Positions 24,730 through 47,538 of a DNA stretch of 64,000 nucleotides are shown piece by piece. The translations under genes were made by a program, and so were the position numbers. The DNA comes from Candidatus Eisenbacteria bacterium (GTDB lineage Bacteria > Desulfobacterota > Binatia > DP-6). How positions within the stretch are numbered: position 1 is the stretch's first letter; the number at the start of each line of letters is the position of its first letter. The stretch is taken from NCBI GenBank assembly GCA_035577985.1, contig DATJZY010000042.1:1-64000 (forward strand), written 5' to 3'. The notes under the pieces were generated by a model. That model was not told the origin of the DNA, ran no database searches, and saw only the letters and a list, made by a program, of their open reading frames with translations.

Positions 24730-24760
24730 GCGGGGCGCGGCGGGGTCGATAGGCAAGTCC

Positions 24761-24880
24761 GCGAGGGCGGAGGCGAGGTTTCGGCTTCGGCTTCGCCGCG
24801 CGACAACTCACGCGCACCGTCACGGCTCTACATTTCGTCGCGCCGCTACGCAGGCGCCTCCACCTCGCCTCCGCCCTCGC
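24761..24880 (-). repeat. Structured repeat family 1, copy 1
   Basis: A 120-bp element with perfect 18-bp terminal arms, GCGAGGGCGGAGGCGAGG (24761-24778) and its reverse complement (24863-24880). Between them is a core shared with copies at 25016 and 47375, here inverted relative to those. The core contains GGAGGCGCCTGCG, AGCGGCGCGACG and GTCGCGCGGCGAAGCCG. It starts about 30 bp after the stop of the esterase gene. With copy 2 and the spacer it fills the 425-bp non-coding stretch 24730-25154. Confidence 0.85.
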
Positions 24881-25015
24881 GACTCACCATCGCGCCGCGC
24901 CCCTCGCCGCAACGGTCGTGCAAAATCCCCCAGGCTGGCCGAGTGAGGCGCAGCTCGTCTCGCGGTCGCCGGTTTGCTGGGTGAGGGGCGCGAAGCGTGC
25001 GTCGGGCGTTGCGTC
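24881..25015. other. Spacer between repeat copies; nothing recognised
   Basis: Remainder of the non-coding stretch between the convergent esterase and acyl-CoA dehydrogenase genes. It has a few short GC-rich palindromes but no gene, RNA or convincing terminator T-run that I can identify. Confidence 0.4.
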
Positions 25016-25137
25016 GCGAGGTCGGGGGGCAGCGCGGAGGCGCCTGCGTAGCGGCGCGACGAAATGTCGGGCCGTGATGCAGTGTGTGTATTGTCGCGCG
25101 GCGAAGCCGAAGCCGAAGCGCTGCCCCCCGACCTCGC
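25016..25137 (+). repeat. Structured repeat family 1, copy 2
   Basis: A 122-bp element. The arms GCGAGGTCGGGGGGCAGCG (25016-25034) and their exact reverse complement (25119-25137) differ from the arms of copy 1 but pair perfectly. The core matches copy 1, including GGAGGCGCCTGCGTAGC and the CGAAGCCGAAGCCG end. Inside the core GCGCGAC and GTCGCGC can form a second stem. It ends 17 bp from the stop of the acyl-CoA dehydrogenase gene at 25155. Confidence 0.85.
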
Positions 25138-30963: not shown

Positions 30964-32247
30964 ATGGACGTCTTCCACCTGACGCAGGCCATGACCCTCC
31001 TCGCCGAGGGCGGCGCCGGCCTCTTCGTCCGCTACCTCGCGACCAGCGGGCTCTTCGTGCTGGTCGCGATCGCGCTGCGCACCGCGCCCGCGCACGTGCG
31101 CCGCTGGGGCCAGCTCGCAGCGAGCGTCGTGCTCATGAGCGTCCTCGCGACGCCGCTCGTCGTCGCCCTGCTCGTCGCCTACATGGCCCTGCTGTTCGTC
31201 GCCGTCGAGCGGCTCCCGCGCGGAGCGATCGGCACGGCGCTCGTGACGGCGCTGGTCGCGCTCCAGATCGTCGCGCCCATCTGGTGGCTCCCGCACCTTC
31301 CCCAGTACGAGGGGCGCGTCCGCGAGTACGTCGCGTTCGCGACCAACCTCACCCTGCTGCGCTCGTGGGCCTTCGCCTGGGATCGGCGCACCGGCGCGGA
31401 CCGCGATCCGTCCGACCTGGGCGAGTTCCTGCACTTCATGTTCTTCCTGCCCGCCTTCATGGCGGGACCGCTCGTCTCGCTCGACGACTTCCGCCGCGGC
31501 CGCCTCGCCAGCTACTGGGACGACGCCGCGCCGCGCGGCCCGCTCGGCTTCCTGCGCGCCGAGTGGTGGGGGCTCGTCCGCGTCGGCGTCGGCATCGTCG
31601 CGATGGCGCTCGCGTTCGGCGTCGTGTGCACGCCGGGATCGACGGGCTACGAGCACGCCGCGGCGGGAACGCCGCTCGACGCGTGGACGCACGTCTTTCG
31701 CGTGTGGGTGTGCATCTACCTCGGCCTCACGACCTGGACCGAGGGCGGGATCGGCTTCGGCCGCCTCGCCGGCTTCGCGTTGCCCGAGAACCTCGCGCGC
31801 CCCTTCCTCTCCTACGGCGTCGCCGACTTCTGGCGGCGCTGGAACATGACGCTGAACCTCTGGACGCGCCGCTACCTCTATCTCCCGCTCGGCGGCGCGG
31901 CCCCGCGCCGGCGCTCGGGTGAGCGGCGGCCCGAGTGGCGGAACACCATCGCGGTCTTCGTCTTCATGGCGGTCTACCACTTGGCCGGCGGCGTGAAGCT
32001 GCTCGGCTTCGGCTACTTCCCGCCCGGCTCGTACGCCCCGTGGCTCCTGTGGGGCATCATCAACGCGGCCGGCGTCCTCGCCACGCGCCGCCTGGGCCCG
32101 CTGCCGCGCGACCTGCGTCGCGCGATCCCCGGCGTGGTGCTGACGGGCGCCTACTGCGCGCTCGGGATCATGACCGCCTTCTTCCCGCCGCGCATGGACC
32201 TGGGCGCGCTCGCCGCGATCTATCGCCGCCTCCTCTTCCTCGACTAG
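30964..32247 (+). CDS. MBOAT-family O-acyltransferase
   Basis: A 427-aa polytopic membrane protein with about ten hydrophobic segments. MBOAT signatures are clear: SYGVADFWRRWNMTLNLWTRRYLYLPLGG, and the active-site histidine H339 in FVFMAVYHLAGGVKLLGFGY. The family transfers acyl groups onto sugars, glycopolymers or lipids, as in AlgI, DltB and PatA. No SGNH partner is next to it. A carrier protein is divergent upstream and a KAS III follows, so the donor could be an acyl-ACP. Acceptor unknown. Confidence 0.86.
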   Translation: MDVFHLTQAMTLLAEGGAGLFVRYLATSGLFVLVAIALRTAPAHVRRWGQLAASVVLMSVLATPLVVALLVAYMALLFVAVERLPRGAIGTALVTALVALQIVAPIWWLPHLPQYEGRVREYVAFATNLTLLRSWAFAWDRRTGADRDPSDLGEFLHFMFFLPAFMAGPLVSLDDFRRGRLASYWDDAAPRGPLGFLRAEWWGLVRVGVGIVAMALAFGVVCTPGSTGYEHAAAGTPLDAWTHVFRVWVCIYLGLTTWTEGGIGFGRLAGFALPENLARPFLSYGVADFWRRWNMTLNLWTRRYLYLPLGGAAPRRRSGERRPEWRNTIAVFVFMAVYHLAGGVKLLGFGYFPPGSYAPWLLWGIINAAGVLATRRLGPLPRDLRRAIPGVVLTGAYCALGIMTAFFPPRMDLGALAAIYRRLLFLD

Positions 32248-32350
32248 GACGCCGAGCCAAGACTACGTCTTCGCTCGGGTGAGGACGCGAGAATGGCACG
32301 TCGATGACACGCGCGACCGGCATGCCGCGGCCGGCGAAGCTGGCGCGGCA
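32246..32350 (+). repeat. Structured repeat family 2, copy A
   Basis: Begins with the stop codon of the MBOAT gene (TAGGACGCCGAGCC). It contains two hairpins: GAGCCAAGAC paired with GTCTTCGCTC (one mismatch), and TGCCGCGGCCGGC paired with GCTGGCGCGGCA. Same orientation relative to the upstream gene as copies B and C. In the second hairpin TGCCGC/GCGGCA replaces TGTCGC/GCGACA of copy B with pairing kept. Confidence 0.82.
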
Positions 32351-32396
32351 CGGGAGGTCCGCGCGACACATCGCCGCGACTGCGACGGATCCGAGG

Positions 32397-32425
32397 TTGA
32401 AACGCTGCGGGGCCCGCTGTAAGCC
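32397..32425 (+). promoter_or_regulatory. Candidate promoter of the KAS III gene
   Basis: TTGAAA (32397-32402), 17-nt spacer, TAAGCC (32420-32425), then 6 nt to the GTG start codon. Predicts a leaderless transcript, and no SD is visible upstream of the GTG. Confidence 0.4.
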
Positions 32426-32431
32426 GCGCCA

Positions 32432-33418
32432 GTGACCGACGCGGCTCTTCGAACGCGCCTGCTCGGCAGCGGCGCCGCAGCCGCGAGCGTGCGCGTCGGC
32501 AGCGACGAGATCGAGCAGCGCCTCGGCCTGGCGCCGGGTTGGATCCGCTCCCGCACCGGCGTCGAGGCACGCCAGGTGCTGCGCGGATCCGAGACGCTGC
32601 TCGACCTCGCCGAGCGCGCCTCGCGGTCGGCCCTCGACGCCGCCGGGTTGCGCGCCCGGGACCTCGACGGCATCGTGGTCGCGACCGCGTCGTCCGAGTT
32701 CGCGTTCCCGTCGTTCGCCTGCCTGCTCCAGGCGCGGCTCGGAACGGGCTCGATCTTCGCGTTCGACGTCGCCGCGGCCTGCGCGGGGTTCGTCTACGGA
32801 CTCGGCATCGCCGATGCGATGGTGCGCGGCGGCTCCGCGCGCACGCTGCTCCTCGTCGGGGCCGACGCCTTGGCCGCCATGACGGGACGCGACGATCCCG
32901 TGTGTTCGCCGCTCTTCGGCGATGCCGCGGGCGCCGTCGTCCTGCGCGGCGAAGCGGGAGACTCCGGCGTCCTCCGGGTGATCCTGCGAGCCAGCGGCGC
33001 GCAGGCGGACCTGCTGGAGCTGCCCGCCGGCGGCCCGTTCGACACCGGCGGCGCGCCGCGCCCGGCCGCGCTCTGCATGCGCATGAAGGGCCCGGAGCTC
33101 TTTCGCGCCGCCGTGACCGAGCTGCTGACGGTGACGCGCGACCTCCTGCGCGAGACCGGCCTCGGCATCGAGGACGTGGCGCTCTTGATCCCACACCAGG
33201 CGAACGCCCGCATCATCGCGTCGATGGTGGAGCACCTCGGCATCGCCCCCGAGCGCGTGTGCGCGAACCTCGATCGCTACGGCAACACGTCGGCGGCCTC
33301 GGTTCCGGTCGCCCTCGACGAAGCGTGGCGCGCCGGACGCGTGAAGCGCGGCGACGTCGTCGTGCTCAACGCCGTCGGCGGCGGCCTCGCCTGGGGCGCC
33401 GCCGCCATCCGTCTCTAG
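32432..33418 (+). CDS. 3-oxoacyl-ACP synthase III family protein (KAS III-like)
   Basis: A 328-aa condensing enzyme from a GTG. The catalytic triad is complete: C117 in FDVAAACAGFVYGLG, the histidine in LLIPHQANARII, and the asparagine in DRYGNTSAASVPVAL. The ending VVVLNAVGGGLAWGAAAIRL is the family signature. May start fatty-acid synthesis or make a specialised 3-oxoacyl product for the neighbouring carrier and MBOAT proteins. No malonyl transferase or other fab genes are nearby, which argues against a housekeeping fab cluster. Flanked on both sides by family 2 repeats. Confidence 0.9.
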   Translation: MTDAALRTRLLGSGAAAASVRVGSDEIEQRLGLAPGWIRSRTGVEARQVLRGSETLLDLAERASRSALDAAGLRARDLDGIVVATASSEFAFPSFACLLQARLGTGSIFAFDVAAACAGFVYGLGIADAMVRGGSARTLLLVGADALAAMTGRDDPVCSPLFGDAAGAVVLRGEAGDSGVLRVILRASGAQADLLELPAGGPFDTGGAPRPAALCMRMKGPELFRAAVTELLTVTRDLLRETGLGIEDVALLIPHQANARIIASMVEHLGIAPERVCANLDRYGNTSAASVPVALDEAWRAGRVKRGDVVVLNAVGGGLAWGAAAIRL

Positions 33419-33523
33419 GACGCCGAGCCAAGACTACGTCTTGGCTCGGGGGAGGAAGCGAGAGTGTCGCGTCCGTGGCCGCGCGACCGGCATGTCGCGG
33501 CCAGCAAAGCTGGCGCGACACAC
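33417..33523 (+). repeat. Structured repeat family 2, copy B
   Basis: Starts on the stop codon of the KAS III gene. Hairpin 1 is a perfect 10-bp stem, GAGCCAAGAC and GTCTTGGCTC, around TAC (33425-33447). Hairpin 2 pairs TGTCGCGGCCAGC with GCTGGCGCGACA around AAA (33493-33520). Together with copy C and the spacer it fills the 339-bp non-coding stretch 33419-33757. Confidence 0.87.
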
Positions 33524-33651
33524 TAGGTACGCCCGCTACGCAGGCGCGTGACCCCGGCTCGGGCGACCTCAGGGTCTCGCTGCGCTCGCGGCGGGCCACC
33601 CGGCCCCCACGCGCGCACCCAACCTCGGCCGCGTGCCCTGGCGCGTACCCA
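33524..33651. other. Spacer between inverted repeat copies B and C
   Basis: About 130 bp between the oppositely oriented copies. Its edges continue the pairing (CACTAGGTACGCC at 33521 with GGCGCGTACCCAGTG ending 33654), so B, spacer and C form one large palindromic region. No gene seen. Confidence 0.45.
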
Positions 33652-33755
33652 GTGTGTCGCGCCAGCTTTGCTGGCCGCGACATGCCGGTCGCGCGTGCCA
33701 CCACGGCAACATGCTCGCGTCCTCCCCCGACCCAAGACGCAGTCTTGGGTCGGCG
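33652..33755 (-). repeat. Structured repeat family 2, copy C
   Basis: Inverted relative to A and B, and therefore in the sense direction of the glpX gene, whose stop codon lies 2 bp away. Hairpin 1 reads GACCCAAGAC with GTCTTGGGTC around a 3-nt loop (33729-33751), a compensatory change from copy B (GAGCC/GGCTC). Hairpin 2 is identical to that of copy B. Confidence 0.85.
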
Positions 33756-33757
33756 AA

Positions 33758-34711
33758 CTAATACTCGGGTCGGCGATCGAAGCGGTGGTGCGCCTGCATG
33801 AGGCGCACGGTCTTCGTCTGCGAGCGCATGATGACCGAGTTCGTCATCGCGCCGCCCTTCACGTAACGGACGCCGGCGAGATAGTCGCCGGGCGTGACGC
33901 CGGTCGCGGCGAAGAAGACGTTCCCGCTCGCGAGCTCGTCCAGACGATACTTGCGGCTGAAGTCGTAGATGCCGGCGGCGCGGAGCTGGCCGGCCTCCGT
34001 CTCGTTGCGGGGCTTCAGGCGCGCCTGCATCTCGCCGTCGAGGCACTTGAGCGCCGCCGCCGCGAGGATGCCCTGCGGCGCGCGGCCGACGCCCATCATG
34101 ATGTCGATGCCGGTCTGGGGCTGCGTGGTCGCAAGCGCCGCCGACACGTCGCCGTCGCTGATGAGCTTGATGCGGGCGCCGGTCTTGCGGATCTCCTCGA
34201 TCAGCTTCAAGTGGCGCGGTCGATCGAGCACGACCACGGTCAGGTCCTCGACGTAGACGCCCTTCGCGTCGGCAAGCGCGCGCAGGTTGTCGGTCGGCGA
34301 GCGGTCGAGGTCGACGACGCCGCGACCCTCGGGACCGCAGGCGATCTTGTCCATGTAGGTGTCGGGGACACCGAGCAGGGAGCCGGCGTCGGCGACGGCG
34401 ATCACCGCGAGCGCGTTGTAGCCGCCGGTCGCGCACGTCGCCGGGCCCTCGATCGCGTCGAGCGCGACGTCGGTCCGCGGGCCCTGACCCGTCCCGACCT
34501 TCTCGCCGGTGTAGAGCATGGGGATCGCGTCCTCGGGGCCCTCGCCGATGACGATCGTGCCGTCGATCGCGATCGTGTCGAACGCCTTCCGCATGGCCTC
34601 GATCGCGGCCTTGTCCGCCGCCACGTCGTCGCCGCGACCCATGTGGCGCGCCGATCCCAACGCCGCCGCCTCGGTGACGCGCACCAGGTCCATGCCGAGG
34701 TTGCGATCCAT
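33758..34711 (-). CDS. glpX: Fructose-1,6-bisphosphatase class II
   Basis: A 317-aa enzyme of the GlpX family (gluconeogenesis, or dual FBPase/SBPase in autotrophs). Signatures are DKAAIEAMRKAFDTIAIDG, VIGEGPEDAIPMLYTGEKVG (metal and substrate acidic residues), TDVALDAIEGPATCATGGYN and GVGRAPQGILAAAALKCL. Length is normal. It follows the apgM-like gene by 6 nt as the last gene of the threonine cluster, an arrangement I cannot explain by pathway. Confidence 0.95.
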   Translation of the reverse strand: MDRNLGMDLVRVTEAAALGSARHMGRGDDVAADKAAIEAMRKAFDTIAIDGTIVIGEGPEDAIPMLYTGEKVGTGQGPRTDVALDAIEGPATCATGGYNALAVIAVADAGSLLGVPDTYMDKIACGPEGRGVVDLDRSPTDNLRALADAKGVYVEDLTVVVLDRPRHLKLIEEIRKTGARIKLISDGDVSAALATTQPQTGIDIMMGVGRAPQGILAAAALKCLDGEMQARLKPRNETEAGQLRAAGIYDFSRKYRLDELASGNVFFAATGVTPGDYLAGVRYVKGGAMTNSVIMRSQTKTVRLMQAHHRFDRRPEY

Positions 34712-47374: not shown

Positions 47375-47538
47375 CCGCCGGCGTCGCGCGCAGGTCGCGC
47401 GGTCGGGGGCGAGGCGGAGGCGCCTGCGCAGCGGCGCGACGCCGCGTCGGGCCGTGACGCGACGTATGTGTCGTCGCGCGGCGAAGCCGAAGCCGTAGGC
47501 TCGCCCCCGACCGCGCGGCCCCGACGCGACGCCGGCGG
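47375..47538 (+). repeat. Structured repeat family 1, copy 3
   Basis: Core as in the 24.8/25.0 kb copies (GGAGGCGCCTGCGCAGC, GGCGCGACG, CGAAGCCGAAGCCG) enclosed by arms CGCGCGGTCGGGGGCGAG (47396-47413) and the exact reverse complement (47500-47517). A second outer pair, CCGCCGGCGTCGCG (47375-47388) and its complement (47525-47538), lengthens the stem. It lies 2 bp from the stop of an acyl-CoA dehydrogenase gene. Confidence 0.85.

Follow-up and report, generated by a model that had tools for sequence, protein, structure and literature searches.

Palindromic repeats directly behind stop codons in a family of soil bacteria: REPIN- or MITE-like mobile DNA that probably inserts at TA within CTAG

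Among described systems, the MITEs of the IS630/Tc1-mariner group, of which Correia/NEMIS, RUP and Nezha are examples, offer one point of comparison for the repeats reported here. The closest published description is that of the REP dimers, placed at most 20 bp from the 3' ends of convergent genes, with termini that often provide a TAG stop codon (PMC3733652). We analyzed a window of 64 kb (the whole stretch of DNA presented here, 64,000 nucleotides) in which three copies of a two-hairpin repeat, A, B and C, lie at the ends of genes. According to our results, these copies are very probably members of a family of mobile palindromic DNA elements, non-autonomous and REPIN- or MITE-like, that insert at TA, mostly within CTAG.

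The unit between fabH and glpX and its hairpins

Using a covariance model built on 50 copies, we recovered the three copies where the original prediction had located them: A at 32251-32365 on the plus strand (112.7 bits), B at 33422-33535 on the plus strand (126.1 bits) and C at 33640-33754 on the minus strand (126.6 bits). All remaining matches in the window stayed at or below 28.1 bits, the next-best ones being the opposite strands of A, B and C themselves. Copies B and C form an inverted unit that sits between the stops of the convergent genes fabH and glpX, and the palindrome, previously estimated at about 340 bp, measures exactly 341 bp. Copy A is found behind the TAG stop (32245-32247) of an MBOAT-family gene (PF03062) and ahead of fabH, which lies in tandem. 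It had been noted that A and B begin at the TAG stop of their upstream gene; this was borne out, and C likewise abuts a TAG, the glpX stop at 33758-33760. The features of the locus are the following:

33418-33758, no strand: presumed complete palindromic mobile unit made of halves B and C, 341 bp, read from the sequence; built like the 295- and 327-nt units of sister species for which empty sites exist
33416-33417 and 33759-33760, one on either side: TA flanks of the unit, read from the sequence
33416-33418, plus strand: TAG stop of fabH, in which TA is the presumed target duplication and G is the first base of the element (sequence and gene call)
32489-33418, plus strand: fabH (codon-usage gene finder; TIGR00747)
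33758-33760, minus strand: TAG stop of glpX, formed like that of fabH on the other strand (sequence and gene call)
33758-34711, minus strand: glpX (codon-usage gene finder; TIGR00330)
33422-33535, plus strand: half-element B (covariance-model match, 126.1 bits)
33423-33449, plus strand: hairpin 1 of B, with a 12-bp stem and a 3-nt loop (folding and alignment)
33493-33520, plus strand: hairpin 2 of B, 6+6 bp with a bulged G and an AAA loop (folding and alignment)
33640-33754, minus strand: half-element C (covariance-model match, 126.6 bits)
33727-33753, minus strand: hairpin 1 of C
33655-33682, minus strand: hairpin 2 of C
32247-32365, plus strand: half-element A, an isolated half (112.7 bits)
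32252-32278, plus strand: hairpin 1 of A, with one mismatch (sequence)
32323-32350, plus strand: hairpin 2 of A (sequence)

The base changes reported between the copies are present as described, with hairpin 1 reading GAGCC..GGCTC in B and GACCC..GGGTC in C, and hairpin 2 reading TGTCGC..GCGACA in B and C and TGCCGC..GCGGCA in A. Hairpin 1 of A also has one C-C mismatch that had gone unmentioned. B and C fold far better than their shuffles (z of -4.8), and A weakly so (z of -1.5). In the alignment of the 50 copies, 99.2% of the cells in the 23 pairs are standard pairs. Shuffling lowers this share to 93.9%, and sliding the partners lowers it to 28-41%. We counted 65 cells with two-sided and four with one-sided changes, and none of 500 shuffles reached any of five measures of pairing and covariation, which confirms the compensatory change proposed for both hairpins. 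A genome-wide search likewise gave further copies (about 110 good ones) in which the pairing is conserved.

With one-sided changes limited to four cells, almost all change goes from one Watson-Crick pair to another. Such near-pure Watson-Crick covariation suits palindromic DNA as well as it suits RNA. Template switching, by which one arm of a palindrome corrects the other, is known from work on quasi-palindromes and could likewise produce two-sided Watson-Crick change that involves no function. Hairpin 1 is intact in low-scoring, eroded copies, sometimes with a quite different sequence and even where hairpin 2 is missing; selection for a terminator or gene-end function could be one explanation and such correction between arms another, and the search model itself favors copies of this kind.

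A separate family of GC-rich repeats is present in the window, its inverted and direct copies lying at 24759-24883, 25025-25128 and 47394-47518, with arms of 104-125 nt that are 81-82% alike. It is probably the first repeat family of the original prediction. The sequence GCCTGCGTAGCGGCGCGAC of this family also resembles a short stretch behind copy B (33530-33548).

Placement at stop codons and empty sites in related genomes

Searching the genome from which the window comes (GCA_035577985.1; 5.70 Mb in 191 contigs), we obtained 132 model matches with an E-value of 0.01 or lower, and about 108 of them exceed 56 bits. With distances measured from the model's first base and genes called by a codon-usage gene finder, 94 of these 108 copies start between -1 and 9 nt from a same-strand stop, most commonly 3 nt behind it. 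Of these 94 stops, 72 are TAG, whereas TAG ends 15 of the 57 genes of the window. Fifty of the 108 copies are arranged in inverted pairs and 58 are single halves. Half-copies in this genome have a median nearest-neighbor identity of 88%. In this assembly, at least 11 contigs have a copy no more than about 450 nt from one of their ends, which suggests that inverted pairs break the assembly.

Regarding other genomes, the element is present in six of the seven that we searched from one family of soil bacteria, with 132, 96, 57, 49, 2, 2 and 0 matches. The counts of 96, 57 and 49 come from three genomes of one sister genus and those of 2 from two further genomes, while a complete sister genome of the same family gave zero matches, as did 31 other genomes of the class. 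Among 84,980 species genomes, the hairpin-2 pattern was found only in soil metagenome bins of one sampling series, named Deltaproteobacteria DP_3, DP_26 and DP_23, and on one contig of an actinobacterial bin. This 4.6-kb contig (VAYC01000340.1) carries a half-element 97% identical to copies in G005, one of the sister genomes; it derives from the same sample of soil, and its binning may be wrong. A search of viral contigs, phages and plasmids detected no element.

In the sister genus nearly every unit is a convergent pair, with a fixed length of 327 nt in DP_3 and of 295 nt in DP_26, and the nearest-neighbor identity among the units of these species reaches 96-99.7%. This identity stops sharply at CTA|GGAG on the left and at CTCC|TAG on the right. 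Among 46 sister-genus units, 20 retain TAG at both ends, and 17 of these 20 read C-TA-G on both sides when inspected by eye. For the 41 units with both neighboring genes called, these genes are convergent in 26 cases, tandem in 14 and divergent in one.

We then joined the flanks of 20 DP_3 units end to end and searched four relatives for them. About 12 of the 20 sites are continuous, and hence empty, in at least one relative. Nine junctions were aligned base by base, and in two of them the alignment is clean, with a single TA in the empty site and a TA on either side of the unit in the filled one, an apparent duplication of the target: GACCGC[TA]ACGC when empty and GATCCC[TA]GGAG..CTGC[TA]GCGC when filled in the first case, and GTCGTG[TA]GCTG when empty and GTGGTT[TA]GGAG..CTCC[TA]GCTG when filled in the second. 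Others are consistent with this scheme after small changes. One site is occupied by a complete unit in G006 and, in the genome of the window, by a unit belonging to another subfamily; in G005 this site has a collapsed solo hairpin whose outer arms join directly. Half units are also found where a sister genome carries the whole unit. At one gene end, units are present in three genomes and the site is empty in a fourth, which indicates a preferred target. The unit formed by B and C has no empty counterpart because fabH and glpX are not adjacent in the relatives.

Besides, we found in G005 a second family of ends, TAGGAGnGCGACTCGAGA, which are mostly single and are related to the ends of the element. 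They occur on ten contigs, and one of them lies within an insert of 133 nt at a site orthologous to that of a DP_3 unit. At 63558-64131 of contig C90 in G005, two units directly adjoin each other, as a nested or tandem insertion.

The target motif is scarce: CTAG occurs 14 times in the window, where about 167 occurrences are expected from base composition (about 12-fold depletion), and nine of the 14 lie within stop codons. The mechanism that we propose from these observations concerns a mobile unit of 290-340 bp, built of two inverted halves of about 115 nt with two hairpins each, which would enter a TA, mostly in CTAG, and leave a TA at both of its ends. The first base of the element being G, entry into the TA of a TAG or a TAA would restore a TAG, and between overlapping convergent genes a TAG would be regenerated on both strands. 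With CTAG very rare and mostly found in stops, entry elsewhere would break a gene or a promoter and the insertion would be lost by selection. Single halves like A and solo hairpins would be deletion derivatives. In this scheme, copies abut stop codons because of the choice of CTAG as target and the leading G of the element (TA+G gives TAG), and the halves all lie in sense orientation because a palindrome, read inwards from either end, starts with the 5' side of a half. For B and C, whose insertion we infer from their architecture, the predicted ancestral site is ..GTCTC[TA]ATAC.., with fabH ending in TAA and glpX in TAG.

Several units have no TA on one side, and some old copies lie behind a TGA with no TA, at a spacing of 0-3 nt. 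Part of the placement then requires later deletions, and the old copies behind TGA remain a weakness of the account based on entry at TA. Where it applies, a CTAG target combined with a leading G would let the element land in stops and leave both of two overlapping genes unharmed; in a genome that is compact and GC-rich, this is a simple way to reach a high copy number.

Candidate mobilizing enzymes and gene-end function

As for the enzyme that moves the units, we weighed two candidates. If it were a RAYT-like tyrosine (Y1/HUH) transposase, which would act on folded single strands, the units would be true REPINs, a reading that we consider plausible but tentative. The three genomes whose copies are nearly identical have 6, 7 and 5 Y1 genes, and the genome of the window, where the copies have diverged, has none. 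The best NCBIfam match of the Y1 proteins is the REP-associated tyrosine transposase, but at 39 bits for a cut-off of 80. REPs likewise lie near the 3' ends of convergent genes, and the termini of GTAG REPs often give the TAG stop (PMC3733652); the tag of our element, however, is CTAG. Moreover, none of the Y1 genes has an element near it (within 1.5 kb), and such genes are also present in G001, a genome free of the element. As the other candidate, a TA-specific DDE transposase of the IS630/Tc1-mariner type would make the units MITEs, which we regard as possible but doubtful. The apparent TA duplication and the CTAG preference suit a mobilizer of this type, since the TA in CTAG is reported as the preferred target of IS630 (Tenzen and Ohtsubo 1991, as cited in PMC2170065), and CTAG opens the ends of the IS630-type elements found in three genomes of the family. 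Yet DDE_3 genes are absent both from G005, which has recent copies, and from the genome of the window, and the inverted repeats of the IS630-type elements are unlike the ends of the unit. In G005, we found no transposase gene or autonomous copy with matching ends, and the only ends present are paired or degenerate. With recent, older and almost no copies in different genomes, the sister species provide a ready set for tracing the mobilizing enzyme.

Two side observations concern these candidate genes. Three of the IS630-type elements whose ends start with CTAG probably also use CTAG targets. Six RAYT-like genes of the sister genus have in common a strong promoter-like stretch, CTTGACA..GCTATTAT, which is adjoined by GTAG- and CTA-like repeats and may be a putative binding site of their own protein.

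One could also argue that the repeat is a 3' untranslated RNA element, a bidirectional terminator or a stabilizer of mRNA 3' ends, kept by selection directly behind stops. The exact position behind the stop, the sense orientation and the pairs between convergent genes would agree with it, as would the strong covariation in the 50-copy alignment and the retention of hairpin 1 in eroded copies. Besides, in genes of the same genome that have no element, post-stop stems of at least 9 bp occur at 0 of 42 close and 3 of 21 wider convergent ends, so the element adds structure that is otherwise missing at the gene end. Against this, CTAG targeting and palindromy already account for position and orientation, relatives have empty sites, and an intrinsic-terminator scan found no T tract and no terminator-like match. 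The distribution is confined to one family, with the element missing from the complete sister genome and from the region downstream of glpX in the five relatives in which the end of this gene could be read; in these five, glpX is closely trailed by another gene on the same strand. A comparison with Rfam gave no match at gathering scores and, at a relaxed threshold, one weak match to a microRNA model, which fits the palindrome. We thus consider an RNA element very unlikely to be the explanation. What the original prediction read as a repeat family with conserved pairing stands as such; the structured RNA or terminator with a mappable 3' end that it implied finds no support in the distribution of the element, and mobile DNA with empty sites makes it unneeded.

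A terminator function on the side is possible. Co-option of the stop-targeting mobile palindrome as a portable bidirectional terminator or mRNA 3'-end element seems unlikely to us; if it were true, compensatory changes would have kept hairpin 1 perfect at old sites despite erosion elsewhere in the unit, in a genome whose other genes mostly have no 3' hairpins. Taking the copies as mobile DNA, they also carry a warning, as a position behind the stop, sense orientation and compensatory changes, which are the usual signs of a regulatory RNA, can stem from a palindromic mobile element.

Comparison with known systems

Structured 3'-UTR RNA motifs and intrinsic terminators have in common with the unit the hairpins at gene ends and the compensatory changes. 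The unit differs from them in that no T run follows its hairpins, in giving no Rfam match at the cut-off, and in being mobile and restricted to one family.

The likeness to MITEs of the IS630/Tc1-mariner group is closer in size and structure. Both are non-coding, of about 300 bp, and have terminal inverted repeats, an apparent TA duplication and the CTAG preference of IS630-like elements. With 341 bp in the window and 295 and 327 nt in the sister species, the unit is within the limit of about 600 bp for a non-coding MITE with terminal inverted repeats, and a target-site duplication is visible at the two aligned sites and in the TAG at both ends of 20 of 46 units. In contrast to MITEs, most of the unit consists of its inverted repeats, which are hairpins in their own right, and we found no autonomous partner with matching ends: no element or transposase of G005 has ends in common with the unit, the IS630-type ends differ, and no DDE_3 transposase accompanies the recent copies in G005.

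REPINs and REP dimers (BIMEs) of gamma- and other proteobacteria differ from the unit in that a REP has 20-40 nt and one hairpin, whereas each half of the unit has about 115 nt and two hairpins. The tag of the unit is CTAGGA, of which CTAG is possibly part of the target, and not the GTAG or CGTC of REPs. Unlike in REPIN systems, no RAYT gene is flanked by the repeat, and the apparent TA duplication also sets the unit apart from REP dimers. The similarities are nevertheless extensive, as both are non-coding, intergenic palindromes in inverted pairs, present in high copy number, placed mostly downstream of convergent or tandem genes a few bases from the stops, with a terminal TAG and with singletons as remnants. 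We claim membership of neither class for the unit; we read it as a genomic parasite, and not as a new regulatory RNA, and place it in the palindromic mobile-repeat kind, REPIN- or MITE-like.
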